Shown: positions 62,462-64,000 of the stretch, one piece after another
Numbering within the stretch: position 1 is the stretch's first letter
How the letters are laid out: each line of letters starts with the position of its first letter
Assembly (NCBI GenBank): GCA_024345305.1
Contig: BRON01000006.1
Location: 558,001 to 622,000, forward strand
Length of the DNA: 64,000 nt
Source of the DNA: Mrakia gelida
Lineage: Eukaryota; Basidiomycota; Tremellomycetes; Cystofilobasidiales; Mrakiaceae
Direction: 5' to 3'
The notes under the pieces: model-generated
What the model saw: only the letters and a program-made list of their open reading frames with translations
Told to the model about the DNA's origin: nothing
Databases searched by the model: none
Made by a program: the position numbers and the translations under genes

Positions 62462-64000
62462 ATGTCGATTCCATCCGACTCCCCCTCTCTCCTGTTCTCT
62501 CCCTCCTCCTTCTCCCCTTCCTCTCCTCACTCGTCCGCCTCAGGTTCGGATTTAAACACTCCTACAGCCGGCTCTCCACCGCGTTCGAGTTTTCAATCAG
62601 CCCGACGGTCGTCCACCTCCTCCTCTTCCCACAACCACGAGCGAACGGCTTCCCCCCTGGACGTCCTCGTCGCCGTTTCACTCAAAATGGATCTCCCTCC
62701 TCCTACGACCATCGCTTCATTAGCAGGAGGATCAGGCTCCTCAAGTCCTACCGCGGCTACCACCAAAATCGACGTTCCGCTCCTCGTCGAACCGTCAACT
62801 TCCTCCTCCTCCTCGTCGTCTTCCTACCCGGTCTCCTCCTTCTTCCCTCCTTCCAACAACTCCTCGTCCTCCTACCTTCAAGAATCCAGCTACCCTACCG
62901 AATCGACTCCGATGGTCGATGTCGTCGACGCTCGTGAAGGGAGAGCGGGTTCAGGCTCGGAGGAATCGCGACGGATGGATTGGAAAGCGTCCTCAACGAC
63001 AGGCTCGAACGAAGACGAACGAGACGAAGAGCTCACAAGCAAGGGGAAGAAAAGGAAACGTCTCGCTAAAGCTGTAAGTTATCACTTCGCTCTCTCTCTT
63101 GCTTTGCTTGCTCTTGCCTTCGCGTTCATGTACTGATGATCGCATATCCACCGACTCTTTAACTTTTGCCGGGGCCTTCAAGTGCAGTGAGTCGGTTCTT
63201 CGAATCTCGCGAGAGGGGGCGGAGGAGGGGAAGGGAGGAGGAAGGAGGGAGCCCAGCTGAGCCCAACTCAACTTCCCCGAGTCGCTGCTGATCGGTTTTG
63301 TTCGCCGTCCTTCGTTTTCTTCGTCCTTCTTCCTCTCAGGTGCATGCCACAAGGTGAGTTCCCCACAATTTTCCCGGTTGATCCTTTCACGAGGAAGATT
63401 ACGGAAGCTCACACACCCCCCCTCGGTCTTTTGCTTTCCGTCCCTACAAGTCCAAACGACGTTGTTCAGGCGAGGAGCGTTGTTCGAATTGGTGAGTCGA
63501 GCTGAGCTCGCCGTTTTTCTTCTACATCCTTCCTGCTGTTTTACCAGGATGGTCTGTTCTGACAGCGGTCCCTGCCCTCTTCTTCTTCTTCTTCTTCTTC
63601 TTCTTGAATCCTTCCTTGCAGTGAATTTTCGGGTGTGAGTCTTGCCGTCGCGTTTCTGCTTCTCTCTTTCACTCGCGCGACCTCCGAACGAAACCTCCTT
63701 TTGCTCACTCGTCCCTCCCTTCCTCCCTCCCTCGTTTTTGCGCCCCCTTTTCCAGCGCGAGTGCATCTACGTAACATCAAAAGGAGAACCTGTCCCAGCA
63801 CCTCGAGCTTCTCGGCCTCGGTCCAACTCCAACCTCTCCACCGCGAGCTCAGCTCGTTCGCCAACCGACTCCCTCTCCAACTCGTTCGGATCCGCCTCCC
63901 TCCTCCCTTCGAGGAAACCTACCGCTTTCTCTATGGGAGCCAGCACTCTAGGAGAGGGATTCTACGGAGGTCCCAAGTCAAGGCAAAGCTTCGGGACCAG
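62462..64000 (+). CDS. Zn2Cys6 transcription factor, 3' end outside window
   Basis: It starts at ATG 62462 (MSIPSDSPSLLFSPSSFSPS). Exon 1 (62462-63073) encodes a 204-residue Ser-rich, disordered N-terminal region ending KGKKRKRLAKA. The zinc cluster is then assembled from exons 63183-63186 (4 nt), 63340-63353 (14 nt), 63451-63491 (41 nt), 63622-63634 (13 nt) and 63756 onward. They give KACSACHKSKRRCSGEER then CSNCEFSGRECIYVTS. This is a perfect CX2CX6C...CX2CX6C zinc cluster in frame through five introns. After it come SKGEPVPAPRPRSNSNL and a Ser-rich linker running to the window end. It looks like a fungal binuclear-cluster regulator with an unusually long N-terminal extension. Targets unknown. 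Confidence 0.85.
63183..63186 (+). other. 4-nt microexon (first Cys of Zn2Cys6 cluster)
   Basis: TGCA, flanked by TTCAAG and GTGAGT. It is needed to make the first cysteine and the correct frame: GCT|TGCA|GTGCATGCCACAAG reads A-C-S-A-C-H-K. Confidence 0.75.
63577..63605 (+). repeat. CTT trinucleotide microsatellite in intron
   Basis: About nine tandem CTT/TTC units in the polypyrimidine part of the intron before the 13-nt exon at 63622. Likely length-variable. Confidence 0.85.

Follow-up and report, generated by a model that had tools for sequence, protein, structure and literature searches.

Exons of only a few nucleotides (nt) have been described before, and the closest parallel to the one considered here—a predicted 4-nt coding exon, TGCA, in a gene of the basidiomycete Mrakia gelida (positions 63183..63186 of a 64,000-nt stretch of DNA, contig C6:558001-622000 in a 34.86 Mb genome assembly of 25 contigs; hereafter, the window)—is a microexon in the Zn2Cys6 domain of Xlr2, a regulator of Trichoderma virens that also carries a fungal transcription factor domain. 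As reported, no DNA-binding domain is encoded in Xlr2 without this microexon, and automatic annotation missed it; it differs from TGCA in being 20 nt long, in encoding PCRRCE with two cysteines, in belonging to an ascomycete, and in the RNA sequencing (RNA-seq) and reverse transcription PCR (RT-PCR) evidence for its glucose-dependent inclusion (PMC11121469). TGCA is 4 nt long, supplies one cysteine, and is predicted here from sequence; no orthology is implied. Closest in size is the exon of MPC1, which is likewise exactly 4 base pairs (bp), not a multiple of three, and is reported as constitutively included (PMC9929638); the TGCA gene differs in its short fungal introns, for which intron definition is presumed. 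Fusarium CYP621A offers another fungal exon that was inferred from reading frame and a conserved motif and missed by gene finders, though it is 1 nt long, is described from 20 orthologues with reads from two species, and lies in a cytochrome P450 rather than a transcription factor; a further 1-nt exon is reported there for Arabidopsis APC11 (PMC12940212). Intron-rich basidiomycete genes with tiny exons include bglA, with exons of 5 bp in Sirobasidium magnum (by complementary DNA) and 6 bp in Rhodotorula minuta (PMC9142197), and Phanerochaete P450 genes, with exons reported down to 6 bp (PMC1184071); these differ in encoding enzymes and in a smallest exon of 5 bp. In a published comparison of fungi, the Cystofilobasidiales, the order of M. 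gelida, reportedly had the highest intron numbers (PMC5103461). Jointly, the published systems cover the elements of the TGCA finding, and among the matches listed in the open-licence literature, no paper describes a 4-nt exon in a Zn2Cys6 gene.

We consider TGCA very probably a genuine and used coding microexon, whether regulated or not; its use is likely to be mainly constitutive, and an ordinary microexon of a microexon-rich fungus would be the most likely explanation overall. By microexon, we mean an internal, coding exon no longer than about 30 nt and flanked on each side by splice signals; here, the exon stands as AAG/TGCA/GTGAGT, with CTGAT motifs at 46 and 48 nt and a weak acceptor. 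The gene model, spliced from the reading frame and GT-AG borders, begins at 62462 near the right end of the window and ends at contig C6:624387, exons 7–11 lying beyond the window. Its 11 exons measure 612, 4, 14, 41, 13, 826, 329, 258, 154, 17, and 630 nt and encode 965 amino acids, arranged as follows.

62462..63073, + strand: exon 1, 612 nt, from the start codon to ..KRKRLAKA, ending AAA GCT and followed by GTAAGT
63074..63182, + strand: intron 1, 109 nt, GTAAGT..TTCAAG, AG-free between donor motif and acceptor
63133..63137, + strand: CTGAT branch-point-like motif of intron 1, with the A lying 46 nt before the end of the intron
63183..63186, + strand: predicted 4-nt microexon TGCA, between TTCAAG and GTGAGT, encoding Cys205 (the first cysteine, C1) and the first base of Ser206
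63187..63339, + strand: intron 2, 153 nt, GTGAGT..CTCAG (acceptor context CTCTCAG)
63288..63292, + strand: CTGAT branch-point-like motif of intron 2, with the A lying 48 nt before the end of the intron
63340..63353, + strand: exon 3, 14 nt, beginning GTGCATGCC and encoding the end of Ser206 and A-C2-H-K
63451..63491, + strand: exon 4, 41 nt, encoding SKRR-C3-SGEER-C4-SN and codon positions 1 and 2 of C5
63622..63634, + strand: exon 5, 13 nt, encoding the end of C5 and EFSG
63756..64000, + strand: the part of exon 6 in the window, encoding RE-C6-IYV..
Contig C6:623669-623685: exon 10, a 17-nt microexon

Joined in order, exons 1, 2, and 3 read K-A-C-S-A-C-H-K and exons 4 to 6 supply C3 to C6, yielding C-X2-C-X6-C-X5-C-X2-C-X6-C (CSACHKSKRRCSGEERCSNCEFSGREC), a cluster that is complete only with TGCA. 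Zn2Cys6 domains have the spacing C-X2-C-X6-C-X5-12-C-X2-C-X6-8-C. A preliminary description of the locus had placed TGCA, the end of exon 1, and the start of exon 3 where we find them, with the same sequences, and had proposed that the 4-nt exon restores the reading frame and provides the first ligand for zinc; both points hold, as does its view that joining 63073 directly to 63340 gives a wrong frame. That direct join, which loses the frame and reaches a stop at 63772 (codon 233, within exon 6), was rejected as a gene model, as were models retaining either of the first two introns, since each of these meets a stop. The further statement that skipping would abolish DNA binding proved too simple, in that the frame shift and early stop would cost the Fungal_trans part as well; because the stop sits in exon 6 with introns downstream, the skipped message would probably be degraded. 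The cluster from C1 to C6 is split across five exons (2–6), and the other microexons of the gene measure 14, 13, and 17 nt.

With TGCA included, the window part of the protein matched the Pfam family Zn_clus (PF00172) at 27 bits against a cut-off of 21, and a 570-amino-acid part, in which Zn_clus was also found, matched Fungal_trans (PF04082) at 63.3 bits (E 2.5e-17). No family match was returned by the Pfam search for the frameshifted product of skipping. Fungal_trans is common but not obligatory in Zn2Cys6 (Gal4-type) fungal factors. Judged by its domains, the gene is a basidiomycete Zn2Cys6/Fungal_trans transcription factor gene, its product a predicted binder of zinc and DNA, and TGCA is required for the frame, the conserved zinc-cluster motif, and the remainder of the protein according to the domain, alignment, and modelling evidence alike.

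How readily such an exon might arise by chance was addressed by listing all AG..GT stretches of 1–90 nt between exons 1 and 3 that restore the frame and leave introns of at least 40 nt (n = 9). TGCA was the only one of the nine with Cys at the C1 position and also the only one with a GTRAGT donor; the eight others were rejected, as none yields CxxCHK and none has a GTRAGT donor. Across 20,000 dinucleotide shuffles, TGYA followed by GTRAGT never occurred and TGYA followed by plain GT occurred 17 times, while 4-nt exons yielding CxxCHK with any GT donor appeared in 113 cases and those of at most 90 nt yielding CxxCHK with a GTRAGT donor in 14. Since a CxxC-restoring exon of any length with a plain GT donor appeared in 2109 of the 20,000, the weight lies on donor, exact position, and homology together, not on frame rescue alone. 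We also aligned the DNA, allowing introns and any exon length, to a profile of 13 homologues from which the query and Phaffia rows had been excluded, using splice models built from introns 3–10 of the TGCA gene. This returned introns 63074-63182 and 63187-63339 with a score of 172.8 (153.4 with TGCA masked), which none of 600 shuffles reached (highest, 159.7). With splice models taken instead from 55 introns of seven control loci, which also underlie all splice-site and branch statistics below, the TGCA path was kept at intron penalties from -6 to -22 and lost at -26.

A homologue search with residues 190–740, in which the 7989 candidates sharing most words with the query were scored at an E cut-off of 0.001, gave 23 homologues, the best being a protein of Phaffia rhodozyma (39% identity over residues 190–740), followed by proteins from Kwoniella, Tremella, Cryptococcus, Naganishia, and others. 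In a 15-row alignment of the query with 14 of the 23, K203, A204, and C205 were identical in all 14 homologues, S206 was kept in at least 90%, and KRKRLAKA, the end of exon 1, was invariant; KACSACHK stood in 12 of the 14, the exceptions being Phaffia (KACST..) and Hymenopellis (KACDGCHK). Because KAC is kept in every aligned row, the messenger RNA should give Cys directly after the Ala that ends exon 1. An 80-amino-acid query with the zinc-cluster domain found no homologue, nor did residues 376–540, and no relatives of the Phaffia protein were found in the viral contigs searched. The protein search for close paralogues gave six matches, three of them the TGCA gene itself.

The deposited Phaffia protein reads ..KRKRLAKACS, then TSPSLFSLTPALAT, then RECIYL; the part that follows KACS looks like translated intron, and the annotation is probably mis-spliced. 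Its sequence fits a putative donor directly after TGC-A and small exons that a gene finder would have overlooked. Among 20 genome stretches with zinc-cluster matches, viewed by eye around the match, several had introns within the domain or close to it. Two of the zinc-cluster loci (C6:1164100-1165900 and C24:119700-121500) were much alike, agreeing in 1619 of 1783 positions when compared at one constant offset, which may reflect a duplication or a duplicated piece of the assembly.

Very small exons also appeared in models of other genes of this genome. We hand-picked 11 housekeeping and related loci from the matches of protein searches and kept ten, three of them added later (L044, L045, and L047) and some, L043 and L047, being paralogues of the protein used as search query; the exon structures are models from DNA. 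One locus (L042) was left out for poor alignment; also left out was a 0-nt artefact in an Arf1-like gene (L039, C8:206300-208900), where the aligner, held to a 500-nt intron cap, split an apparent intron of ~529 nt at an internal AG/GT. Internal exons of 15 nt or less numbered 10 of 74, and those of 9 nt or less 5 of 74. The Cdc42 model (L038, C2:1753600-1755600) contained a 6-nt (GTCGTC) and a 3-nt (AAA) exon in near-invariant protein sequence, one smaller and one slightly larger than TGCA. Very small internal exons were likewise present at the Ran, calmodulin, EF1A, and two Rab-type loci (L040, L041, L044, L045, and L047), with 14- and 7-nt exons in Ran, a 9-nt exon in EF1A, 13 nt in each Rab-type gene, and, in calmodulin, a 12-nt exon and a 7-nt exon, read by eye, after a separate ATG exon; a second calmodulin-like gene had a 12-nt exon. 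Masking cost 17.0 (Cdc42, 6 nt), 7.6 (Cdc42, 3 nt), 25.5 (Ran, 7 nt), and 23.9 (EF1A, 9 nt) in score. For the two Cdc42 exons and the 7-nt Ran exon, 60 shuffles apiece all fell short of the observed score, though the best of them by just 3 to 9 bits (508.7 and 505.2, the observed score being 511.6, for Cdc42; 494.3 against 503.5 for Ran). On these models, the genome looks microexon-rich and the size of TGCA ordinary within it. The preliminary description had put 4 nt at the lower limit of what spliceosomes recognise, a claim that is not supported in view of the 3-nt exon in the Cdc42 model and the published exons of 4 bp in MPC1 and 1 nt in CYP621A and APC11.

Control introns had a median length of 115 nt (range 78–351), within which introns 1 and 2 fall at 109 and 153 nt. 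Were TGCA not an exon, one intron of 266 nt would take their place; 2 of the 55 controls measure 262 nt or longer. A CTNAY motif occurred in all 55 controls, the last one lying 9–58 nt upstream of the acceptor, and the AG-free stretch ahead of the acceptor, 102 nt in intron 1, ranged from 23 to 136 in the controls. Several observations weigh against TGCA as an exon. The intron 1 acceptor, TTCAAG, has a score of -0.85, lower than that of any of the 55 controls (minimum -0.2), under an acceptor model partly built from those controls and so slightly biased in their favour; A at position -3 of the acceptor occurred in 1 of 55; the last 40 nt of the intron have a purine fraction of 0.33 (control median 0.23, maximum 0.38); and a CAG lying 5 nt further on (63185-63187) could act as a rival acceptor. 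The deposited model of the nearest relative, Phaffia (39%), lacks Zn_clus among its precomputed domains. Against intron definition in particular, dependence on an exon-definition region is reported for the MPC1 exon of 4 bp (PMC9929638). The weak acceptor and the purine-rich end of intron 1 point either to use that is inefficient or regulated or to TGCA not being an exon. The competing acceptor of exon 3 ranks 43/55, and two other introns of the TGCA gene, 3 and 4, both rank 2/55.

If TGCA were not an exon, the best remaining path—the one returned with TGCA masked—joins 63077 to 63340 through a GT 4 nt inside GTAAGT and stays in frame, reading K-A-V-S-A-C with Val in place of C1, the first ligand. 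We regard this as very unlikely, given that its donor, GTTATC, scores -0.61 where the lowest of the 55 control donors scores 4.8, and that it replaces a Cys kept in 14/14 aligned homologues, probably leaving the domain non-functional. We judge it equally improbable that the gene is in decay or the locus misassembled, the apparent microexon being a coincidence; the locus comes from one genome only and the deposited Phaffia model lacks the domain, but the 965-amino-acid frame is open across 11 exons with GT-AG borders and can be aligned to relatives over the searched region, and the shuffle tests argue against coincidence.

A further possibility is that TGCA is real and works as a regulated switch, whereby inclusion would give a DNA-binding regulator and skipping a frameshifted message, turning the factor off under some condition. 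An acceptor below all 55 controls facing a stronger rival at exon 3, together with an exon length that is not a multiple of three so that skipping ends at the stop in exon 6, would suit such a device, and the Xlr2 microexon, reported to be included in a glucose-dependent manner, provides a precedent (PMC11121469). A weak acceptor alone is, however, no proof of regulation, as the ranks of introns 3 and 4 illustrate, and tiny exons sit in housekeeping gene models of this genome, in which switching is not expected. Xlr2 itself is not a case of plain skipping, since the report states that no reads joined its exons 1 and 3 (PMC11121469). The splicing switch put forward in the preliminary description gains no direct support, its one hint being the acceptor score, and we think it unlikely; that a lineage routinely splicing exons of 3–9 nt turned the weak-acceptor TGCA into an on/off control of a transcription factor is a similarly doubtful proposition.

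We therefore return to TGCA as an ordinary, probably constitutive microexon. Introns 1 (109 nt) and 2 (153 nt) would each be recognised as a unit, by intron definition, and removed sequentially; once intron 1 is gone, the end of exon 1 would read ..GCTTGCA/GTGAGT, giving intron 2 a donor of the usual kind. In this genome, very small exons look like a regular feature of how genes are built. Exons of this sort are often missed by gene finders; the Phaffia relative appears to have been stripped of its DNA-binding domain by annotation, and other regulators in such genomes may suffer likewise. If transcripts confirm the 3–9-nt exons of the housekeeping genes, this fungus would be a handy system for learning how a fungal spliceosome finds exons so small.
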